DNA of 64,000 nucleotides from an uncultured Roseicyclus sp. (GTDB lineage: Bacteria > Pseudomonadota > Alphaproteobacteria > Rhodobacterales > Rhodobacteraceae), in contig CANMRT010000003.1 of the NCBI GenBank assembly GCA_947500415.1, positions 310,001 to 374,000 on the forward strand, in the 5' to 3' direction. The notes under the pieces are model-generated. The model was not told the DNA's origin. It ran no database searches and was given only the letters and a program-made list of their open reading frames with translations. Below, piece after piece: positions 8,293-20,037 of the stretch. The stretch's first letter is position 1. Every line of letters begins with the position of its first letter. The position numbers and the translations under genes are program-made.

Positions 8293-9384
8293 ATGGACAA
8301 GATGCCAAAATGGGCCGACATCCTGCTGATCCCGCTGATCAGCGTTGTCCTTGCCCTCTTCGCCTCCGGCCTCGTGGTCTACTTCATCATCGGCGAAAAC
8401 CCCTTCCGCGCCATGGCGATCATGGTCAACGGGGCATTTGGCTCGGCGTACGGCTGGGGCTACACGCTGTTTTACACCACGAATTTCATCTTCACGGGCC
8501 TCGGTGTTGCTGTCGCCTTCCACGCACGCCTGTTCAACATCGGTGGCGAGGGGCAGGCCTATGTCGCGGGCATCGGTGCCGCCATCGCCTGCCTCTTGAT
8601 CCCTTGGCCCCATTGGTCCCTGGCCCTTCTGGCCGTCACGATCCTGACCTCCGTTTTCGGGGCCGCCTGGGCCGCGATCCCAGCTTACCTGCAAGCCAAG
8701 CGCGGCAGCCACATCGTGATCACCACGATCATGTTCAACTTCATCGCGGCCTCGCTGATGATCTACGTCTTGAACAACATCTTCACGATCCCCGGCTCGG
8801 CCGAGACCGCCTCGGTCCGTTTCCCCGAAACCACGCATCTTCCCAATGCAGGCGAGTTCGCAAGCTTCCTCGGTTTCCGCTCCTCCACACCGCTCAACGT
8901 CAGCTTCTTTATCGCGCTGGTCGCCGCTGTCGGCGTCTGGCTCCTGATCTGGCGCACGCGGCTTGGCTACGAAATCCGCGCTTTCGGCCATTCTGAAACC
9001 GCCGCCGTCTACGCCGGCATCAACCCCATCAAGATCACCATGATCGCGATGCTCATCTCGGGCGCGCTGTGTGGGATGATGGCGATCAACGCCGTGCAGG
9101 GCGAAAGCGAGCAACTCCGCCTCGACTTCGTGGCTGGCGCGGGCTTCGTTGGCATCGCCGTGGCGCTTATGGGCCGCTCCCACCCCGTCGGCGTCTGCTT
9201 CGCCGCCCTGCTCTTCGGGATGCTCTACCAAGGCGGTGCTGAGCTTGCGTTCGAAATGCCTGCCGTTTCACGTGAGATGATCCTCGTGATTCAGGCCCTT
9301 GTGATCCTGTTCACCGGCGCGCTCGACAACATGGTTCGGATGCCGATGGAACGGCTCTTCCTCTCTTTCCGGCGAGAGGGCTGA
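8293..9384 (+). CDS. BMP-type ABC transporter permease (first)
   Basis: 363 residues, about eight to ten membrane helices. The conserved permease stretch is AFHARLFNIGGEGQAYVAGIGA, and GFVGIAVALMGRSHPVG matches the loop that contacts the ATPase in the BPD_transp_2 family. It follows the ATPase gene by two bases with GGGGG as ribosome site, so it is co-transcribed. Its usual partner permease is separated from it here by three other genes. Confidence 0.94.
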   Translation: MDKMPKWADILLIPLISVVLALFASGLVVYFIIGENPFRAMAIMVNGAFGSAYGWGYTLFYTTNFIFTGLGVAVAFHARLFNIGGEGQAYVAGIGAAIACLLIPWPHWSLALLAVTILTSVFGAAWAAIPAYLQAKRGSHIVITTIMFNFIAASLMIYVLNNIFTIPGSAETASVRFPETTHLPNAGEFASFLGFRSSTPLNVSFFIALVAAVGVWLLIWRTRLGYEIRAFGHSETAAVYAGINPIKITMIAMLISGALCGMMAINAVQGESEQLRLDFVAGAGFVGIAVALMGRSHPVGVCFAALLFGMLYQGGAELAFEMPAVSREMILVIQALVILFTGALDNMVRMPMERLFLSFRREG

Positions 9385-10437: not shown

Positions 10438-11070
10438 ATGGCTGAGCTTACCCCCCATCTTCCAGCCCTCTTCGCCGCTCTCGGCTTTTTCAGCCTCGGG
10501 TTTCTGGTGATCGGCCCGAACATCGCCGCGATCATCGGTACCTCCATGGCCCGTGGCCGCACGGCAGGCCTGTCGCTGGCTGTCGGCGTGGGCCTCGGCT
10601 CCGGCCTATGGGCGACACTCACCGTGGCAGGCCTTGCGTCGTTGCTGACCGCCTATGCAAGCGCCCTCATCGCGCTGAAACTCTTCGGCGTTGCCTTCCT
10701 GCTTTGGCTCGCCTTCAAATCATTCCGGTCCGCGCTCCGCCCTGAAGCCCCACCGCCGCAAACCCGCGCCTTGGGCGAACGCAATTTGATCCTCACCGGT
10801 CTCACCATTCAGATGACCAACCCCAAAGCCGCGCTGCAGTGGATCGCCATCGCAGCCATCGCGATGAATGGGGAGGCCCCCTGGGCCATCGGCGCGCTGC
10901 TCGTCGTCTCCGCCACGCTTCTGTCGCTCATAGGACACGCCACCTATGCGCTGACCTTCTCCGCCACGCCCATCGTGGCGCTCTATACCCGCGCGCGGCG
11001 CTGGATTGATGCCACTCTCGGCGTCTTCTTCGCCTTCGCCGCTTACAAACTCGCTACGTCAAGGATCTGA
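10438..11070 (+). CDS. LysE/RhtB-family amino-acid exporter, copy 2
   Basis: 210 residues from the ATG one base after copy 1 (the ORF track begins inside copy 1). Same architecture, with MTNPKAALQWIAIAAIAM in place of the second block and an identical C-terminal KLATSRI. The first block is altered: SLGFLVIGPNIAAIIGTSMARGR, where SPGP has become VIGP. The pair may act as a heteromer or may have diverged in substrate; this is inference. Confidence 0.9.
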   Translation: MAELTPHLPALFAALGFFSLGFLVIGPNIAAIIGTSMARGRTAGLSLAVGVGLGSGLWATLTVAGLASLLTAYASALIALKLFGVAFLLWLAFKSFRSALRPEAPPPQTRALGERNLILTGLTIQMTNPKAALQWIAIAAIAMNGEAPWAIGALLVVSATLLSLIGHATYALTFSATPIVALYTRARRWIDATLGVFFAFAAYKLATSRI

Positions 11071-11074
11071 GCCC

Positions 11075-12250
11075 ATGGATTTCATGACAATCCTGCAACT
11101 CTCCGACAGCTCGCTCCGGCTGGCCACGCCGCTTCTGCTGGCCTGTCTCGCGGGGCTTTTCTCGGAACGAGCGGGGATCTTCGACATCGGGTTGGAGGGC
11201 AAGATGCTCGCCGCCGCTTTCTTCTCCGCCGCCTTCGCCTATTCGTCCGGCAACGTCTGGGTCGGCCTCGGCATCGGCATTCTCGCCTCCGTCGTCCTCA
11301 GCCTCCTGCACGGGCTCGCGTCGATCACCTTCCGCGGCAATCAGCTGATCTCAGGCGTGGCCATCAACTTCCTCGCTGCGGGCCTAACGGTGGTCATTTC
11401 TCAAACGTGGTTCAGCCAGGGTGGTCGAACCCCAGCCCTCACCGGTGATGCACGTTTCAACGAGATCGTCCTGCCCGGCGCCGCCTCCCGCATCCGCGAC
11501 ATCGCCCAGCAGGAGCCTTTGGGGCAGGTTTATTCCGAGCTTCTGTCGGGCCATTCCATCCTCGTCTATATCGCGCTCTTGATCGTGCCACTGACATGGT
11601 GGGTCCTCTACCGCACCCGCTTCGGCCTGCGCCTGCGCGCCGTGGGTGAAAACCCCGCCGCCGTCGACACCGCAGGTATCTCGGTCGTGGGCCTGCGCTA
11701 CGCCGCCGTTGTCATCTGCGGCGTCCTCTGCGGCCTTGCTGGCGCCTACCTCGCCACAGGCCTCTCCGCAGGCTTCGTGAAAGATATGAGCGCGGGCCGG
11801 GGTTTCATCGCGCTGGCCGCCCTTATCTTCGCCAAATGGCGCCCTTGGGAGGCGCTCGGCGCTTGCCTCCTGTTCGGTTTCCTCGACGCACTCGGCAACC
11901 GGTTCCAGAATATTGAGCTTCTGACCCTCTTCAGCCTCATCTTCCTCTTCGTCGTGCTGATCGGCGGCATCCTGTTGCTCCTGCGCTGCATCTCCGTCCT
12001 GCGCGGCACCACCAGTGTCCGCGACCTCATCGGCCCCGCCATCACGCTCGTTGTAGGCCTTGTCTTCGCCATCGGCTTCCCGCAACTCGATCCGGACAGT
12101 GGGCTTGCCACATGGCTCTCTTCAGTCGTCCTGCCAGTCCAGCTGATGCAGGCCCTGCCCTACATCCTGACAGTGGTGATCCTCGCAGGCTTCGTTGGCC
12201 GCGCAATACCGCCGCGCGCGGGCGGTGAGCCCTACGTGAAGGAACGCTAG
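11075..12250 (+). CDS. BMP-type ABC transporter permease (second)
   Basis: 391 residues, about nine to ten membrane helices. It has ERAGIFDIGLEGKMLAAAFF, the second-permease counterpart of the NIGGEGQ motif, and GRGFIALAALIFAKWRP, the coupling loop. The start at MDFMTIL follows the LysE stop by four bases. Normally this gene directly follows the first permease; here a 1.7-kb three-gene insertion separates them without breaking the operon. Confidence 0.94.
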   Translation: MDFMTILQLSDSSLRLATPLLLACLAGLFSERAGIFDIGLEGKMLAAAFFSAAFAYSSGNVWVGLGIGILASVVLSLLHGLASITFRGNQLISGVAINFLAAGLTVVISQTWFSQGGRTPALTGDARFNEIVLPGAASRIRDIAQQEPLGQVYSELLSGHSILVYIALLIVPLTWWVLYRTRFGLRLRAVGENPAAVDTAGISVVGLRYAAVVICGVLCGLAGAYLATGLSAGFVKDMSAGRGFIALAALIFAKWRPWEALGACLLFGFLDALGNRFQNIELLTLFSLIFLFVVLIGGILLLLRCISVLRGTTSVRDLIGPAITLVVGLVFAIGFPQLDPDSGLATWLSSVVLPVQLMQALPYILTVVILAGFVGRAIPPRAGGEPYVKER

Positions 12251-12284: not shown

Positions 12285-13859
12285 CTACCTGAACCAGAAG
12301 TCCCAACCGCGCTGATAGGCTGCCACCAGCGGATGGCCCTGGATCGTGTTCACTGGCACATCACCGGCCGGATACTGATCCTCGCCAAAGGCCTGCGCTC
12401 CTGACCAGACCTCCGCGTTCAGATACCGCAACCCCTCCGGCAAGTCCGGCATTCGGCCCTCCGCGACACCAAGCGGCGAGGCCATCACAAACCCCCAGTT
12501 TCCGAAGCTCGGCAAATAGACCTGATAGGGCACCGTCGACAGCCCCTGATCAGGCACCATCGGATTGCGCGTCGCCGCCAGCGTGGCCTCGGTGATCCAG
12601 AACGCCTCCGCCGCAAAGGTCGGCGATCCCGCCTGCGTCACCATCATCCCGCTGCCAGACAGCCGCTCCATCAGCATCGCGTAGAATTCCACCGAATAAA
12701 GCTTGCTCAACGCGATGCTCTTCGGGTCCGGCAGATCGGCAATGATTACGTCGAACAGCGCATCCCCATGCGCCTCCGCCGCCCAGACCCAGGCGTCCGT
12801 GTTCACAATCTCTACCCGCTCATCCAGAAGCGCGCCGTCGTTCAGCGCCACCAGATCCGGGTTCGTTGAAAACAACTCCGTCACGCGCGGGTCCAGATCC
12901 ACCAGAACCACCCGCTCCACCCCCTCATGGCGCAGCACCTCACGCACGGCCATCCCGTCGCCACCGCCCAAAACCAGCACGCTCCGCGCGTCCTCCACCA
13001 GACCCATGGCGGGGTGCACCAAGGCCTCGTGATAGCGGTGCTCATCGAGTGAATCGAACTGGATCGAATGGTCCAGGAACAGCCGGTAACGCTCATCAAA
13101 CCGCGTGATAACGATGCTCTGATAGGCCGTCGTCTCCGAGAAGATCACCTCATCTTGAAACAACCGCGCATCGACCGCCGAGACCATCCGTTCACTCATT
13201 GCAAATGCGAGGAGCGAAGCGAGGAGGAACCCGGCCCATGGCACCCAAAGCCCCCGCCCCAACCGATCCCGGAACAGATAGAGCGAGAACCCCGCCACCA
13301 GCAGGTTCAGCGTCCCGAACGCAAGTGAGGCGCTCATCAATGGCAGGTTCGGCACAATCAGAAGCGGGAAAGCCAGCGAAGCGGCCAGCGCCCCGATGTA
13401 ATCCGCCGTCAGGACATTCTCGAACCGAAACTCCGCCGCGCCGATCTCTTTGAGCACGCGGCTGATCAGTGGAATTTCCATGCCCGACAGCACGCCAATC
13501 GCAATCAGCCCGCCATAAAGCGGCAAGCCCACGGTGCCGTAGATCGCATAGGCAAAGAACAACAGCGGCCCCAAAGCGCCACCAATCACACCCAGCGCGA
13601 TCTGTGCCCGCACGAAGCCGCCCAAGGCGTCGCCCACAAACCGCGAGGCCCACGCACCCACGCCCATCGCACTCAGGAAGACACCGATCACGAAAGAGAA
13701 TTGGCGGATCGAGTCCCCCAGCAAGTAGCTGGAAATCGTGGCCGCGATCAGCTCGTAGATCAGGCCCGCCACGGCCACCACAAAGGTCGCGGCCAGAAGC
13801 CACGCCACCTTGGGCGTCAACTCAGGGGTCGCGCCCGGCTCATCACTTGGAGGTGTCAA
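12285..13859 (-). CDS. Membrane-fused polyamine aminopropyltransferase (spermidine synthase-like)
   Basis: 524 residues. About residues 18-225 form seven or eight membrane helices. The C-terminal half is a spermidine synthase-like Rossmann domain: VLVLGGGDGMAVREVL (decarboxy-AdoMet site), VVLVDLDPRVTEL, and FDVIIADLPDPKS, where DLPDP stands at the place of the DSTDP catalytic loop. It would transfer an aminopropyl group from decarboxylated AdoMet, but no AdoMet decarboxylase gene is nearby, so the true substrate is open. Last gene of the DUF4178/DUF350 operon, 33 bases after DUF350. Confidence 0.9.
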   Translation of the reverse strand: MTPPSDEPGATPELTPKVAWLLAATFVVAVAGLIYELIAATISSYLLGDSIRQFSFVIGVFLSAMGVGAWASRFVGDALGGFVRAQIALGVIGGALGPLLFFAYAIYGTVGLPLYGGLIAIGVLSGMEIPLISRVLKEIGAAEFRFENVLTADYIGALAASLAFPLLIVPNLPLMSASLAFGTLNLLVAGFSLYLFRDRLGRGLWVPWAGFLLASLLAFAMSERMVSAVDARLFQDEVIFSETTAYQSIVITRFDERYRLFLDHSIQFDSLDEHRYHEALVHPAMGLVEDARSVLVLGGGDGMAVREVLRHEGVERVVLVDLDPRVTELFSTNPDLVALNDGALLDERVEIVNTDAWVWAAEAHGDALFDVIIADLPDPKSIALSKLYSVEFYAMLMERLSGSGMMVTQAGSPTFAAEAFWITEATLAATRNPMVPDQGLSTVPYQVYLPSFGNWGFVMASPLGVAEGRMPDLPEGLRYLNAEVWSGAQAFGEDQYPAGDVPVNTIQGHPLVAAYQRGWDFWFR

Positions 13860-13892
13860 TCGCGTCGCCCCGGTCAGGCTATGCGCCCATCA

Positions 13893-14117
13893 TCAAGACA
13901 GGATAACGGCCGCGATGATGATCGCCATCGAAACGAAGACAGACCCGATCAGAATGGCGAGCGAGGTGTTCTGATCCTCCTCGATCTCCTTCACAATCGG
14001 AAACGGCGACAGCATCTCGATGATCTTGTAGGCAATGAACATCAGCACCATGCCGATGACACTGTAAAACAACATCGAGATGAGTTCAGCGAGGATGATT
14101 TGGTCGAACATCTGCAA
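13893..14117 (-). CDS. DUF350 small membrane protein
   Basis: 74 residues with two hydrophobic segments (about 8-30 and 50-72) around the acidic linker VKEIEEDQNTSLAILIGSVF, a typical DUF350 (YjfL-like) layout. Inner membrane, function unknown. The family is often found beside spermidine synthase-like, PspA-like or DUF4178 genes, as here. It sits 23 bases downstream of the 60-residue membrane peptide. Confidence 0.88.
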   Translation of the reverse strand: MQMFDQIILAELISMLFYSVIGMVLMFIAYKIIEMLSPFPIVKEIEEDQNTSLAILIGSVFVSMAIIIAAVILS

Positions 14118-14140
14118 AGGCTCCTATTCCGTAGGGCTGT

Positions 14141-14323
14141 TCATTTGATCCGTCCGAAGGCGAAGAAGCCTCCGCTGCCGCCACCGGTGGACCCGGTGCG
14201 GATGGATTGGGTTGAGGCCGCCAGATCGCGGCTTTCGCGTCCGACGCCGTAGTAACTCAGGTAACTGGCACCCATCAGCGCCATGACCGCGCCACCGATG
14301 ATGATAAGTCTGATCGGGGTCAT
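14141..14323 (-). CDS. 60-residue single-helix membrane peptide
   Basis: The ORF track gives 80 residues, but the ATG at 14323 (MTPIRLIIIGGAVMALMGASYL) starts a clean N-terminal membrane helix four bases after the DUF4178 stop, which is the likely start. After the helix comes a short glycine-rich tail, TGGGSGGFFAFGRIK. No family recognised. It keeps its place and frame inside the polyamine operon, which supports its being a real gene. Confidence 0.7.
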   Translation of the reverse strand: MTPIRLIIIGGAVMALMGASYLSYYGVGRESRDLAASTQSIRTGSTGGGSGGFFAFGRIK

Positions 14324-14327
14324 CGGC

Positions 14328-15611
14328 TCAGTCCTCGCTCGTCCAGTCGGACCCGGCGAACCGCCGGCTTGTATGCATGGCACGCCGGCCAGTGACGTAA
14401 AGCCATCCCAGCCCCGAAATGCTCGCCAGAACCAGCAGCCAGAAGGCCGTGGGTTTGCCCTCGCTCACCCGGACCGTCAGCGTGAAACCGTCGGACGCGT
14501 TACCCCCTTCCGCGCGCTCCAGGCGCAGAGTGTGGGTTCCAACTTCCTCCGGGCGGAACCGGAACCACGCCCGGCGGGAGCCCTCAGACCAGCTTTCGCC
14601 GCCAGACCGTCCGGAATAGTAGGAAATCGCACGTTCGGCGGCGACGACGGGGTGTCCATCGGGCCCCAGTACCTCAACCGCAAACACGCCCCATGCGTTC
14701 TGCAAATTGCTGTCAAGCCGTACGCGGGCCAACTGGCTCCGGTTTGTCACTTCGAAGCTATAGCTTTCCGGCAATTGGGCCAGCGTGGCGGCAGGCGTAT
14801 CAAGCACCAACCGCCCTCCACTCAGCCAGAACAGTAGTCCAATCACCAGCGACACCACGGCCGTGAACGCCAACACCTTACGCAGCAGCCCTTCCTCAGC
14901 CATCGGCTTGTAGGGCTCAAGCGGATGCTTCTTGGGTGCGCCAAGGGCGGACGGATCAAAACCCATATCCCGCGCCACTGTGGCACCGTCCATCAACTGC
15001 GTCAGCTCTACTTCGCGCTCGCGGCTGGATTTCACCAACCCCAGCATCGCGTCAGGCCCAAGCAGGCTCACTACCTGCTTTTTCTCGCCCAACTGCGGCA
15101 CCCAGTTGAATTCACCTTCCATGTATTCGATCTGCGTGACCGAGGTCTCATAGTATTTGTAGGTCTTGCCCGCATAGCTGCGTCGCGGCGGCGTCTCGGC
15201 ACGCTCCACAGTCGAGGGGCTCAACCAATGGCCCATGTTGTAGTCGCGCACCTTGCGCGTGAAGGTGACATGCCCGTCCTCGACGTTCAGCCACAGATAG
15301 CCATGCGTTGGCGAAAACACCTGATGCTCCACCCAGCGCCAGGTCCGCCCACCATACTTTTCCATCAGGCCCAACGTGCCGATGACGGTGAACTCCACAC
15401 CCTCATAGGTCAGCGTCATGCCGATGGTGATCGGGCTTGCCGGATGATCCCGCTTCCCGATGCTGTCGAGCACCTTGTAGTTGTCCTGCGTATCCAGAAC
15501 CGCGCCGCAATAGCCGCACACATGGCTCTGCACCCGGCCCCCGCCCAGAACCGAAAGACCGGCCCCACACGACGTGCAATTGATCGAAGAAAGACCCTGC
15601 GCCGCCGTCAT
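14328..15611 (-). CDS. DUF4178 protein with N-terminal zinc ribbon and two C-terminal membrane helices
   Basis: 427 residues. Residues 10-45 hold a zinc ribbon (CTSCGAGL ... CGYCGAVLD). A DUF4178 domain follows (MTLTYEGVEFTVIGTLGL, then WVEHQVFSPTHGYLWLNVED). A membrane helix lies near residue 240 (VLAFTAVVSLVIGLLFWLSG), then a beta-rich, probably extracytoplasmic region, and a last helix near residue 395 (FWLLVLASISGLGWLYVTG). It overlaps the upstream DUF4178 gene by ATGA. Function unknown. Confidence 0.85.
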   Translation of the reverse strand: MTAAQGLSSINCTSCGAGLSVLGGGRVQSHVCGYCGAVLDTQDNYKVLDSIGKRDHPASPITIGMTLTYEGVEFTVIGTLGLMEKYGGRTWRWVEHQVFSPTHGYLWLNVEDGHVTFTRKVRDYNMGHWLSPSTVERAETPPRRSYAGKTYKYYETSVTQIEYMEGEFNWVPQLGEKKQVVSLLGPDAMLGLVKSSREREVELTQLMDGATVARDMGFDPSALGAPKKHPLEPYKPMAEEGLLRKVLAFTAVVSLVIGLLFWLSGGRLVLDTPAATLAQLPESYSFEVTNRSQLARVRLDSNLQNAWGVFAVEVLGPDGHPVVAAERAISYYSGRSGGESWSEGSRRAWFRFRPEEVGTHTLRLERAEGGNASDGFTLTVRVSEGKPTAFWLLVLASISGLGWLYVTGRRAMHTSRRFAGSDWTSED

Positions 15612-16243
15612 GCCACCCGGCTCCCGTCCAGCCGTTCAACCTTCAACGTGAACGGGTCAAGCCATTCGCCATCGCTCCACCCGTGGCCGCCTTCCCAGAA
15701 CTCACCGGACAGAAGCTGCCCCGACGGGCCGGAGGCATTGATGAAGTAATGCTCGTCATCCACCTGAATCAGTTCAGGGAATTGCCCGCGCACCGCGATG
15801 CACTTGGCCGTATCACCCTCGGTTACTGTGTAGTCGCGGCCGTTGTAACTCACGGTCTCACCCACCGCAGGGGGATCACTCCGGCGCGGTCCGGCATTGC
15901 CGTGAAACGGATATTGCACCGCCACATCGCCTTCGTCGATCGACACCCAGGCGCCTTCGCCATTGCTGTTCTCTACCCAGAACTCATCCCAGGTCCCGCG
16001 CCCGTAGTCATACCGCGCATGGCCCACGACGATGCACTTCTGCCCACCGATCTCGACCGTGTCATTCACGCTCAACAGCATCGGATAATCATGCATCTCG
16101 CCATTGTTGCCGATGGGATTGAGCGCAGCGCCCTCGCGAAACAGCGTCGTGTCGCAGGACGGGCAATCAAACATCCGCGTGGATTTGCGAAGGTTCTCAA
16201 ACCCATAGCCGCAATTTGGGCATGTGACGTGTGTGTCAGACAT
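15608..16243 (-). CDS. DUF4178 protein with N-terminal zinc ribbon (soluble)
   Basis: 211 residues, no membrane helix. It starts with a zinc ribbon (CPNCGYGFENL ... CPSCDTTLF), then one clear DUF4178 unit (LLSVNDTVEIGGQKCIVVGH, then WDEFWVENSNGEGAWVSIDE) and a second weaker one (GETVSYNGRDYTVTEGDTAK). First gene of the five-gene operon. The zinc ribbon plus SH3-like repeats suggest an adaptor binding a ligand or protein, which is inference. Confidence 0.82.
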   Translation of the reverse strand: MSDTHVTCPNCGYGFENLRKSTRMFDCPSCDTTLFREGAALNPIGNNGEMHDYPMLLSVNDTVEIGGQKCIVVGHARYDYGRGTWDEFWVENSNGEGAWVSIDEGDVAVQYPFHGNAGPRRSDPPAVGETVSYNGRDYTVTEGDTAKCIAVRGQFPELIQVDDEHYFINASGPSGQLLSGEFWEGGHGWSDGEWLDPFTLKVERLDGSRVA

Positions 16244-16339: not shown

Positions 16340-17710
16340 TTACCCCAACACCTCATCGACCGACGCCCGCGCGACACCCGCCACCAGATCGGCCTCTTCC
16401 CGGGTCAGGCACAAGGGCGGCGCAAACCCAATCGTATCCGATTGTGGCATCGCCCGTGCAATCACGCCGCGCCGCGCCATCGCCGCCACGATCTGCGGCA
16501 CCATCTTGTCGCCCGGATCAAACGCCTCTCGCGTGCCGGGCGTCTTCACCAGCTCAACTGAGCTCAACATCCCGCCTCCGCGCACCTCGCCCAGACGCGC
16601 CTGCCCCTCCATCGCATCCCGCAACGCTTGCGTCAGATATGGCCCGACCTCGCCCGCATTCGCCACCAACCCCAAACTGTCGAGCAGCTTCAGGTTCGCC
16701 ACCCCGGCCGCCGCACCGATGGGATGCGCCGAATAGGTCCAGCCATGGCCAAACGGCCCATTCTCATCCGTCCCCCGCGCCAGCACATCCCACACGCGGT
16801 CATGCACAATGGACCCCGACAGAGGCGCATAGGCGCTCGTCAGCCCCTTGGCGATTGTGATCAAATCCGGCTCCAACCCATAAACGGGCGAGCCAAACAT
16901 CGACCCCAACCGCCCGAACCCGGTGATGACCTCATCCACGATCAAAAGGATGTCGTGCTTTTTCAGGATCGGCTGGATCGCCGCCCAATACCCCTCCGGC
17001 GGCGGCACGATCCCACCCGTCCCCATCACAGGTTCCGCCACAAAGGCCGCAATCGTGTCCGCGCCCTCGTCGGCAATCAGAGCCTCCAGATCTGCGGCAC
17101 ATTGCGCCACGAACTCTGCCTCGCTCTGCGCCTCGTCCTCCCGCTGGAAATAGTAAGGCGCCGTTGTATGCCGCACCATGTCGAGCGGCAGATCGAATTT
17201 GTTGTGAAACAGGCTCAGCCCCGTCAACGACCCACTCATGATCCCCGCGCCATGATAGCTTCGCCACCGCGCGATGATCTTCTTCTTTTCCGGCCGCCCG
17301 AGAATGTTGTTGTAATACCAGACCAATTTGATGTTGGTCTCGTTAGCATCCGAGCCACCTTGCCCGAAATAGGTCCGGTTGAACCCCTCCGGTGCGCGCT
17401 CCGCCACCATCCGCGCCAATGTGACCGAGGCCTCCGTGCCGTGCCCAACGTAGGAGTGGTAATACGCCAGCTCCCGCGCCTGTGCCGCAATCGCCTCCGC
17501 CACCTCCTGTCGCCCATAGCCAATGTTCACACAGAACAGCCCCGCAAAGGCATCCAGCAACCGGTTCCCGTCGCGGTCGGTAACGTAGCACCCCTCCGCC
17601 GTCTGAATAATCCGCCCCGGCGCCTCCCCCCGTGCGTGCTGGCCAAGGTGCGTCGAAGGGTGGAAGAAATGCTCCCGGTCCCATTTGTCGAGTTGGTCGT
17701 TGGTCAGCAT
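16340..17710 (-). CDS. Class III omega-aminotransferase, candidate diaminobutyrate transaminase of ectoine breakdown
   Basis: 456 residues, PLP enzyme of the ornithine/omega-amino-acid class: YFGQGGSDANETNIKL, the cofactor aspartate in ILLIVDEVITGFGR, and the Schiff-base lysine in ITIAKGLTSAYAPL. AGGAGG eight bases before the ATG at 17710 sets the start 13 codons inside the ORF-track version. It is divergent from doeA-doeB across 138 bases. In ectoine degradation DoeD transaminates L-2,4-diaminobutyrate to aspartate semialdehyde; position makes that role likely, but a beta-alanine or GABA transaminase is possible. Confidence 0.82.
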   Translation of the reverse strand: MLTNDQLDKWDREHFFHPSTHLGQHARGEAPGRIIQTAEGCYVTDRDGNRLLDAFAGLFCVNIGYGRQEVAEAIAAQARELAYYHSYVGHGTEASVTLARMVAERAPEGFNRTYFGQGGSDANETNIKLVWYYNNILGRPEKKKIIARWRSYHGAGIMSGSLTGLSLFHNKFDLPLDMVRHTTAPYYFQREDEAQSEAEFVAQCAADLEALIADEGADTIAAFVAEPVMGTGGIVPPPEGYWAAIQPILKKHDILLIVDEVITGFGRLGSMFGSPVYGLEPDLITIAKGLTSAYAPLSGSIVHDRVWDVLARGTDENGPFGHGWTYSAHPIGAAAGVANLKLLDSLGLVANAGEVGPYLTQALRDAMEGQARLGEVRGGGMLSSVELVKTPGTREAFDPGDKMVPQIVAAMARRGVIARAMPQSDTIGFAPPLCLTREEADLVAGVARASVDEVLG

Positions 17711-17848
17711 GGGCGTGGCCTCCTTGAATGCGCTCCGCCACGCTATCAATCAAAAGCCGTCGCGCAAGCCGGTCATGAACCAATGTCGCAAACGGGCTGG
17801 ACGCCGCACCTCCCCTCGGCAACGCTCCCACTAATAGGAGATCCCGCC

Positions 17849-19027
17849 ATGCCAGACCGCATCCCCAATTTCTCGCCCGAGGAATATGCCACCCGCCTCA
17901 CCAAGACCCGCCGCGCGATGGAGGCGCAGAACCTCGAATGGCTCATCCTCACCGATCCCTCCAACATGTCCTGGCTCACCGGCTACGACGGCTGGTCCTT
18001 CTACGTCCACCAGGCGGTCATCGTGCCGCCCACCGGCCTGCCGCTGTGGTGGGGCCGCGCGATGGACGGCCTCGGCGCGCTGCGCACCGTCTACATGCCC
18101 GACGATCACGTCATCGGCTACGATGACACCTACGTGCAAAACCCTGCCAAACACCCGCACGAAACCCTCGCAGACCTGATCCGTCAGCGTGGCGGCTCCG
18201 GCACGCGCATCGGCGTCGAGCTTGACAATTACTACTATTCCGCCGCCGCCCACCAAACGCTGCTGCAACACCTCCCCGACACCCAATTCATCGACGCCAC
18301 AGGCCTGGTGAACTGGCAACGCGCCATCAAATCCGAGGCCGAAATCACCCGCATGCGCAAGGCCGCCAAAATCGTGGAGGCGATGCACAATCGCATCCTG
18401 GAGGTCGCCGAACCGGGCCTGCCCAAACACCACCTCGTCGCCGAAATCCTCGCCACCTCCGTGCGGGGCAGCGACGACGCCTGGGGCGACTACCCCGCCA
18501 TCGTCCCCCTCACCCCCTCCGGCCTGGACGCCACCGCCCCCCACCTCACGTGGGACGACAAGCCAATGCAAACGGGTGAGGCCACCTTCTTCGAGATCGC
18601 CGGCGTCTTCCGCCGTTACCATTGCCCGCAATCCCGCACCCTATTCCTGGGCTCCATGCCGGACCACTTCAAAGAAGCCGAAAAAGCCGTCGTTGAGGCC
18701 ACCCACTACGCCCTCGACCAGGCCAAGCCCGGCAACACCTGCGAAGACGTCGCCAACGCCTTCAACGGCACCCTCAACAAACTCGGGTTCGAGAAAGACA
18801 GCCGCACGGGCTACGCCATCGGCCTCTCCTACCCGCCCGATTGGGGCGAGCGCACCATGTCCTTCCGGCGCGGCGACACCACGCCCCTCCAACCCGGCAT
18901 GACCTTCCACTTCATGCCCGCCCTCTGGCTCGACGATGGCGGCATCGAGATCACCGAACCCATCCTGATCACCGACACCGGGCACGAATGCCTCTCCACC
19001 CTCCCGCGCGAGGTCTTCGTCAAATGA
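17849..19027 (+). CDS. doeA: Ectoine hydrolase DoeA (M24 peptidase family)
   Basis: 392 residues with creatinase-type layout: N-terminal domain to about residue 165 and an M24 pita-bread domain after it (EAEITRMRKAAKIVEAMHNR onward). DoeA opens the ectoine ring to N-acetyl-2,4-diaminobutyrate in the cytosol. Features that recall DoeA rather than prolidase are LTDPSNMSWLTGYDGWSFYV and FRRYHCPQSRTLFLG. The track ORF runs 407 codons further upstream as antisense of the aminotransferase; TAGGAG eight bases before this ATG fixes the start. It overlaps doeB by ATGA. Confidence 0.9.
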   Translation: MPDRIPNFSPEEYATRLTKTRRAMEAQNLEWLILTDPSNMSWLTGYDGWSFYVHQAVIVPPTGLPLWWGRAMDGLGALRTVYMPDDHVIGYDDTYVQNPAKHPHETLADLIRQRGGSGTRIGVELDNYYYSAAAHQTLLQHLPDTQFIDATGLVNWQRAIKSEAEITRMRKAAKIVEAMHNRILEVAEPGLPKHHLVAEILATSVRGSDDAWGDYPAIVPLTPSGLDATAPHLTWDDKPMQTGEATFFEIAGVFRRYHCPQSRTLFLGSMPDHFKEAEKAVVEATHYALDQAKPGNTCEDVANAFNGTLNKLGFEKDSRTGYAIGLSYPPDWGERTMSFRRGDTTPLQPGMTFHFMPALWLDDGGIEITEPILITDTGHECLSTLPREVFVK

Positions 19028-20037
19028 CCTCTCTCACCATCCCGCTCGACCAACCCGGCAAGCACTTCGGCCATTTCCGTATTCCCCATTCCGCCGACGA
19101 CAGCGCATGGGGCCACGTCATGATCCCGCTCTGCATCATCAACGGCACCCGCCCCGGCCAGACCGCTCTGGTCACCGGCGCCACTCACGGTGACGAATAT
19201 GAGGGGCCCATCGCCATCCGCCACCTCATCCGCAACGCCGAGCCGTCCAACGTTCTCGGCCGTCTCATCCTGATCCCCTCCCTCAACCACCCCGCCTTCA
19301 TGGCCGCGACCCGCACCTCGCCAATCGACGGCGTGAACCTCAACCGCGCCTTCCCGGGCGATCCCTCCGGCACCCTCACGCAAAAACTCGCCGCCTTCTT
19401 CAACGACCATCTGATCCCCGCTGCCGACCTCATCATCGACATGCATTCAGGTGGCAAAACCCTCGACTTCCTGCCCATGGCCGTCAGCCACATCCTTGAG
19501 GACGCCGAGCAAGATCGCCGCTGCGCCTATGCTGCCCGCGCCTTCTCCGCCCCCTACACCGCACGCCTGCGCGAAATCGACGACACCGGAATGCTCGATG
19601 GGGCCGCTGAACGGGCCGGAAAGACCTTCGTCACCACCGAACTTGGCGGCGCGGGCACGTCCACCGCAACCAGCGCCGAGATCGCCATAAGCGGCCTGCG
19701 CCAATGCCTCGCCAACCACGTCATCTACGACTGGCCGGCAGGCATGAAACCCTCGCGTGCGCTCGATCTTTCGGATCCGGAGGGCTTCCACTTCGCCACC
19801 CAGCGCGGCCTCTTCCACGCGCAGGTCAACCTCGGCGACACTGTCGAACAAAACCAGTGCCTCGCCAATATCTACCACCCCGAAGACCTCGAAGCCGCGC
19901 CGAAACCCATCTACGCCCAGCGCGCTGGCCTCGTCGCCGCGCGCCACGTTCCGGGCCTGATAAAACCCGGCGACTGCGCTTTCGTTATCGGCACCGATGA
20001 AGGCCCTGTTGGCTTCCCGGACCCCTCGACCCGTTAA
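19024..20037 (+). CDS. doeB: N-acetyl-L-2,4-diaminobutyrate deacetylase DoeB
   Basis: 337 residues, zinc carboxypeptidase-like amidohydrolase of the succinylglutamate desuccinylase/aspartoacylase family. Zinc ligands are seen in GATHGDEYEGP (HxxE) and IIDMHSGGKTLDF. It removes the acetyl group from the DoeA product, giving 2,4-diaminobutyrate for the transaminase. Coupled to doeA by a 4-base overlap. The regulator, transporter and doeC usually found with these genes are not in the window. Confidence 0.9.
   Translation: MTSLTIPLDQPGKHFGHFRIPHSADDSAWGHVMIPLCIINGTRPGQTALVTGATHGDEYEGPIAIRHLIRNAEPSNVLGRLILIPSLNHPAFMAATRTSPIDGVNLNRAFPGDPSGTLTQKLAAFFNDHLIPAADLIIDMHSGGKTLDFLPMAVSHILEDAEQDRRCAYAARAFSAPYTARLREIDDTGMLDGAAERAGKTFVTTELGGAGTSTATSAEIAISGLRQCLANHVIYDWPAGMKPSRALDLSDPEGFHFATQRGLFHAQVNLGDTVEQNQCLANIYHPEDLEAAPKPIYAQRAGLVAARHVPGLIKPGDCAFVIGTDEGPVGFPDPSTR

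Follow-up and report, generated by a model that had tools for sequence, protein, structure and literature searches.

We analysed a 64,000-nucleotide stretch of DNA from an uncultured Roseicyclus sp. (GenBank assembly GCA_947500415.1, contig CANMRT010000003.1, positions 310,001 to 374,000; hereafter the window) and followed up a five-gene operon on its minus strand (16243-12285; Table 1). The operon encodes two DUF4178 proteins (A and B), a 60-amino-acid (aa) peptide that we call P60, a DUF350 membrane protein and an aminopropyltransferase (APT) fused to seven transmembrane (TM) helices, the 7TM-APT. From sequence and genomic context, we lean towards a protein-modifying system in which the fused enzyme would aminopropylate the C-terminal lysine of P60. 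P60 is probably the substrate, and it belongs to a group of tail proteins with a terminal lysine that are found with the enzyme across phyla. In the pathway we propose, SpeD, the S-adenosylmethionine decarboxylase (AdoMetDC) encoded elsewhere in the genome, would make decarboxylated S-adenosylmethionine (AdoMet), and the 7TM-APT would transfer its 3-aminopropyl group to the amine on the side chain of the terminal lysine. At the end of its side chain, lysine carries the same aminobutyl group (a four-carbon amine) as putrescine, the normal acceptor of the APT fold. The catalytic domain is probably periplasmic, with the 7TM part serving as an anchor and perhaps as a passage for the dicationic donor; DUF350 and both DUF4178 proteins would act as scaffold and/or sensor, and the modification may change charge or form cross-links in the envelope. 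A preliminary description of the operon had already suggested a membrane-bound system that makes or attaches an aminopropyl group, perhaps to lipid or another membrane target, with DUF4178 as sensor or adaptor. A membrane-bound aminopropyl transfer system with a target other than a polyamine agrees with all of the evidence presented here.

In the Rhodobacterales loci, the peptide gene lies between those for DUF4178 B and DUF350. P60 has no Pfam or NCBIfam match, and G26, S40, R42 and K60 are the sole invariant residues among 36 Rhodobacterales P60 sequences. Both lysine codons are used for K60, AAA in 27 homologues and AAG in 9. A P60 profile matched 7 of 121 genomes of the family, all of them enzyme-bearing (7/10 vs 0/111), and in the remaining three enzyme-bearing genomes another partner, of ~200 aa, takes P60’s place. 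The ~200-aa partner protein of a second Rhodobacterales subtype (L034, L040, L041 and L112) ends in -SGGLRAGK. These matches, together with equivalents in other phyla, bear out the earlier idea that the 60-aa peptide is a fixed member of the system. We also observed a rhomboid-GNAT fusion encoded between speD and the lysine-tailed protein in the second subtype (L041:6196-7482, L112:4940-6253 and L034:10417-11730).

A lysine-ended small membrane partner stands alongside the enzyme in at least seven phyla. The Acidobacteriota, Planctomycetota, Riflebacteria, Desulfobacterota and Myxococcota have a short open reading frame (ORF) with a TM segment at P60’s place, often with an S-[IVL]-R motif, that ends in -GGK, -RGGK, -PGK or -HGGK. 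In Betaproteobacteria, a peptide of 50-60 aa adjoining speD ends in -GGHK or -GSHK; the gammaproteobacterial partner, of 310-350 aa, resembles a lipoprotein and ends in -RFGGK or -RRGK. At seven loci (L156, L158, L160, L162, L088, L095 and L167), the lysine tail forms the C-terminus of the DUF4178 protein itself (-GGYTSGGSHK), fusions that tie the two together. The lysine carriers thus range from peptides of 48-100 aa and TM proteins of ~200 aa to lipoprotein-like proteins of 310-580 aa and DUF4178-fused tails.

We counted this pattern with a filter blind to the terminal residue, which collected proteins with a TM segment and whose last 20 residues are Gly/Ser-rich, on both strands and within 6 kb of the enzyme. 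Of 114 loci, 100 had such a protein with a terminal lysine; serine, the next most frequent ending, came up in 23. After reading the misses and dropping one spurious match (L087), a lysine tail is present in 107 of 112 evaluable operons. The 29 loci from the phylum were fetched after the lysine rule had been stated; 12 of these passed the strict filter, and 13 more were added by reading longer or fused proteins. Independent loci on plasmids of Tritonibacter, Novosphingobium, Ensifer, Gemmatirosa and Alteromonas all have a lysine tail (5/5), in one case on an annotated 48-aa protein ending in -GPSHK encoded between DUF4178 and DUF350. No preference for a C-terminal lysine was seen in the other operon proteins.

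The preliminary description had named lipid as a possible target. If the acceptor were a membrane lipid, for example phosphatidylethanolamine, the lysine-tailed peptide would be a regulatory subunit. A membrane-embedded enzyme with membrane partners would suit such a target, as would the association of relatives with envelope-stress (PspA) genes (PMC11237479). However, the neighbourhoods examined hold no recurring lipid-binding or lipid-enzyme gene, and a lipid acceptor gives no reason for an invariant C-terminal lysine on unrelated carriers. We found nothing that favours a lipid, and consider this target quite unlikely; because the C-terminal lysine of the peptide is invariant, a protein target is indicated instead.

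Two E. coli systems, YgiBC and YjfIJKLMC, offer a parallel. Like the window operon, they combine a membrane or lipoprotein partner having a Gly/Ser-rich tail with polyamine-type chemistry, and the yjf system has a DUF350 partner. E. coli YgiC and YjfC are named peptide--spermidine ligase in RefSeq, and their DUF1190 partner proteins YgiB and YjfM have Gly/Ser-rich tails ending in -MGG and -WGG. Among 24 readable DUF1190 proteins of the phylum, 18 end in -GG and none in lysine. Thus the E. coli systems use an ATP-grasp amide ligase with -GG tails, whereas the window has an APT with a lysine tail (-GRIK in P60); none of the five operon genes matches ATP-grasp in Pfam or NCBIfam, and DUF1190 is absent from the window’s genome. 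Amide ligation requires a carboxylate on the acceptor and aminopropyl transfer an amine, and the -GG and -K tails therefore fit the respective chemistries. The peptide-spermidine ligase systems are those of Pederick et al. 2023 (doi 10.1021/acs.biochem.2c00592), as cited in PMC12568646.

The donor would be supplied in trans. The preliminary description had noted that an AdoMetDC gene is missing, which is correct for the window and wrong for the genome, since speD lies on another contig (G000:C2:91959-92270; L001, L045) beside genes that we named rplM/rpsI by sequence reading. AdoMet itself as the donor, a candidate based on the apparent absence of speD, was rejected on finding speD in the genome. 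Within the family, 10 of 121 genomes encode the fused enzyme, and speD occurs in all 10 of these and in 18 of the 111 others (Fisher p=1e-7); in six of these ten genomes, speD adjoins the operon or lies close to it. Across 299 sampled Pseudomonadota genomes, the fused enzyme occurs in 30, of which 24 have a class-1 speD and three of the other six a class-2 AdoMetDC (27/30 in total). Given this co-occurrence, decarboxylated AdoMet is the likely donor. In a tree, the SpeD of the window’s genome groups with SpeD proteins normally paired with soluble SpeE (support 99/98), apart from operon-linked SpeD. This placement means that in three genomes from three genera (G000, G054 and G085), each with the fused enzyme, SpeD was kept while the soluble SpeE with which it normally pairs is absent. 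Two further genomes are listed as observations: the control genome of Corynebacterium glutamicum has a fused-enzyme match above cut-off and no class-1 AdoMetDC match, and a weak speD match lies at G047:C55:295343-295606, in the only family genome that combines a speD match with the lack of any soluble or fused aminopropyltransferase above cut-off.

The persistence of speD without soluble speE in these three genomes would also be expected if the enzyme were an ordinary spermidine synthase, tethered to the membrane and acting on putrescine, with the peptide and DUF proteins merely localising or regulating it. In the window’s genome, the enzyme is the sole Spermine_synth protein, ornithine/arginine-decarboxylase-family genes exist, and no nspC-type carboxyspermidine decarboxylase was found, all in keeping with such a role. 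Against it, relative G025 encodes the fused enzyme in addition to a soluble speD-speE pair, and the window enzyme scores far below the curated speE cut-offs (TIGR00417, 124.6 vs 249.55 bits; PRK00811, 149.3 vs 260 bits). A 2025 paper (PMC12803844, citing Li et al. 2019) moreover states that bacterial membrane-APT fusions have been shown to take no part in making spermidine or spermine. An ordinary synthase would also leave the lysine rule unexplained.

The enzyme’s residues point the same way. An AlphaFold model (predicted local distance difference test score, pLDDT, 92) places seven TM helices between residues 16 and 220 and a short, polar helix as linker ahead of the catalytic domain, where the preliminary description had counted about eight helices. 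The APT domain (~236-465) contains GGGDG at 298-302 and, as described before, DLPDP at 375-379, and its fold matches 1uir, 6bq2 and 7xif with TM-scores of 0.74-0.80 (target). We compared 33 fused enzymes with 17 soluble SpeE proteins of relatives. Donor-site and catalytic residues are common to both sets (Q247, Q267, D272, Y276, H277, GGGDG, D323, D355, D370, D375, D378 and P379, with YHE among the shared motifs). By contrast, P377 replaces T, S412 replaces V and F452 replaces Y in the fused enzymes (33/33 vs 17/17). From established knowledge of the fold, we take these three positions to be on the acceptor side. Where soluble SpeE has DSTDP and PTY, the window enzyme has invariant DxPDP and PSFGxWG, in addition to its membrane domain. 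Retained donor and catalytic residues with a changed acceptor side fit an active enzyme with another acceptor, and with the acceptor-side residues of the soluble enzyme replaced, we regard an ordinary spermidine synthase as unlikely.

A fungal protein with the same overall architecture raises a different reading, in which the enzyme would be a methyltransferase or transfer another AdoMet-derived group. The fungal N-terminal histidine methyltransferase (NHMT), likewise seven TM helices fused to a spermidine-synthase-like domain, methylates the N-terminal histidine of secreted proteins and requires its TM domain (PMC10349129). It is akin to our proposed system in modifying a protein terminus on the secretory side, and from PMC12803844 we infer that NHMT and the fungal homologues of the bacterial fusion form one family. 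NHMT, however, uses AdoMet and no longer has the acidic residue of GxG(D/E)G (PMC10349129), whereas the window enzyme keeps it as D301. D301 and both Asp residues of DxxDP are invariant in the fused enzyme, and AdoMetDC co-occurs with it; transfer of a methyl or another AdoMet-derived group is thus very improbable here.

Positively charged residues of the enzyme indicate its orientation. The side of the N-terminus, L2, L4 and L6 is the K/R-rich one in 31/31 homologues (mean 8.9 vs 2.5), and this charge distribution predicts an N-in protein, which with seven helices puts the catalytic domain in the periplasm. Such a location agrees with the lipoprotein-type partners, the fusions of DUF4178 with a TM segment and tail, and the twin-arginine translocation (Tat)-type signals of a flavin amine oxidase encoded at many loci. 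E36 in TM1 and E128 in TM4 are invariant; as a suggestion only, they could serve the passage of the cationic donor, which would be needed outside if catalysis is periplasmic.

Several points weigh against aminopropylation of the lysine tail. In 64 of 76 small-tail proteins, the residues following the TM segment are more positive than those preceding it; these charges favour a cytoplasmic tail, at odds with a periplasmic catalytic domain, and P60’s own orientation is the main weakness of the proposal. Five evaluable loci (L087, L159, L166, L175 and L178) have no clear lysine tail nearby, although most or all other partners are missing nearby there too, and three enzyme-bearing genomes of the phylum (G157, G177 and the 71%-complete G286) yielded no AdoMetDC. 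Part of the lysine rule is post hoc, because 13 of the phylum loci were added by reading longer or fused proteins. The E. coli ligases are not membrane-fused, which makes that parallel inexact. Lysine modification itself we infer from sequence and context.

The lysine might be conserved for another reason, such as a charge at the membrane edge, a docking or degradation signal or envelope attachment, and the true acceptor would then be something else. Conservation reveals constraint and not which reaction uses the lysine, and the topology evidence is mixed. On the other hand, variable Gly-rich tails with a fixed last residue resemble a presented terminal group, and the related YgiC/YjfC system is annotated as a peptide ligase and has partner tails with a different fixed end, -GG. 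We therefore give this explanation little credence and retain the C-terminal lysine as the preferred acceptor.

A broader and distinctly more tentative idea is that this post-translational modification is widespread among bacteria. A 7TM-APT that also moves decarboxylated AdoMet across the membrane would, in the periplasm, 3-aminopropylate the C-terminal lysine of small tails on membrane proteins or lipoproteins, followed in many lineages by a Tat-exported flavin amine oxidase that possibly makes a cross-linking aldehyde. The oxidase gene was found in 43 loci (e.g. L158:8249-10006 and L187:7445-9061), mostly adjoining the enzyme, which is the usual arrangement outside Rhodobacterales, and its products have Tat-type signals, often with a lipobox. 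The count of 21 Tat signals among the 43 is a rough lower bound, as the simple scan misplaces the flavin adenine dinucleotide motif in overlapping ORFs.

The operon belongs to a known family whose function is undefined, and represents a variant that has two DUF4178 genes and speD elsewhere. A 7TM spermidine-synthase-like protein is encoded together with DUF350 and DUF4178, in some cases also with a lipoprotein, in operons reported by Ravi et al. 2024 (PMC11237479), who propose that they sense polyamines or aminopropylate other substrates. The window operon likewise unites these three components of the PspA-CesT/Tir polyamine operons (PMC11237479), but with neither PspA nor CesT/Tir among its five genes or beside it, and with a second DUF4178 gene and the 60-aa peptide instead. 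Lipoprotein-type partners in the gammaproteobacterial relatives also end in lysine and may be compared with the lipoproteins in some of the Ravi et al. operons. The fusions of Li et al. 2019 (doi 10.1042/BCJ20190561), as presented in PMC12803844 and PMC11237479, resemble the window enzyme in belonging to the NF002956 family, in joining an N-terminal membrane domain to a C-terminal APT domain, in having AdoMetDC in the genome and in having an undefined acceptor; in the window’s genome, speD is unlinked. As the preliminary description had stated, related DUF350/DUF4178/spermidine-synthase neighbourhoods are known, and the literature consulted on the family leaves their product undefined. Given the statements in Ravi et al. 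2024 and PMC12803844, its general idea was already published; the acceptor was not. New here are the proposal of a lysine-tailed acceptor, the seven-TM model and the predicted periplasmic catalytic domain.

The substrate of membrane-fused aminopropyltransferases is described as unknown in the literature consulted, and K60 of a 60-aa peptide is a specific candidate, testable by mass spectrometry. If the proposal is true, this would be a new protein modification, and AdoMet decarboxylase would gain a role outside polyamine synthesis. ATP-grasp ligases acting on -GG tails and aminopropyltransferases acting on -K tails would then modify a single type of tail protein in the envelope by two different chemistries.

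Table 1. Genes and features of the operon (coordinates are positions in the window).
Feature	Coordinates	Strand	Profile match or conservation
DUF4178 protein A, 211 aa, soluble, N-terminal CxxC...CxxC zinc ribbon	15608..16243	-	PF13785 83.3 bits (cut-off 25)
DUF4178 protein B, 427 aa	14328..15611	-	PF13785 65.9 bits (cut-off 25)
Lys-tail peptide P60, 60 aa, one TM helix, Gly/Ser-rich tail, motif S-[IV]-R-x-G-S, C-terminus -GRIK	14141..14323	-	
K60 codon, directly ahead of the P60 stop codon	14144..14146	-	K in 36/36 Rhodobacterales homologues
DUF350 membrane protein, 74 aa, two TM segments, half-length relative of YjfL	13893..14117	-	PF03994
7TM-aminopropyltransferase, 524 aa	12285..13859	-	NF002956 619 bits (cut-off 472), residues 15-521

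Families were assigned by Pfam and NCBIfam profile searches. The compact single-strand arrangement reported earlier was confirmed: the first junction is a 4-base ATGA overlap, and the later gaps measure 4, 23 and 33 bases. Rhodobacterales loci other than the second subtype keep the window’s five-gene order, and the DUF4178-DUF4178-peptide-DUF350-APT order also occurs in Acidobacteriota and Novosphingobium. The order is therefore conserved outside close relatives, far beyond chance, and the preliminary description passes the refutation test it had set on this point.

Both DUF4178 proteins have intact zinc ribbons, as previously noted. The ribbon cysteines of protein A, whose gene stands first in the conserved order, are C8, C11, C27 and C30; those of protein B (C12, C15, C32 and C35) are invariant in 29 homologues. 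In its AlphaFold model (pLDDT 91), protein B consists of the zinc ribbon, a DUF4178 beta domain, a TM helix (240-263), a beta-sandwich domain and a second TM helix (390-420). Because B has TM helices itself, four of the five operon products are membrane proteins, one more than first counted. A fold search with the B model returned just unrelated beta proteins (full-chain TM-score <0.2, query-normalised) and gave no functional lead. The DUF350 product covers profile positions 3-65 of 133 (45.5 bits, cut-off 26), and its gene has an alternative ATG start at 14111. The enzyme also matches Spermine_synth (104.4 bits, cut-off 22.9).

The operon is flanked by an ATP-binding cassette (ABC) permease gene and an aminotransferase gene. 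Ectoine-degradation genes lie directly upstream: a class III aminotransferase (16340-17749, minus strand), followed on the plus strand by the ectoine hydrolase DoeA (~17866-19027; TIGR02993, 606.7 bits, slightly below the cut-off of 613) and the deacetylase DoeB (~19030-20037; TIGR02994, 379.7 bits vs a cut-off of 402.7). On the other side are two plus-strand ABC-transporter permease genes of the B6/nucleoside type (8293-9384 and 11006-12250), well under curated cut-offs, and between them two genes that we named LysE-like exporters by sequence reading.

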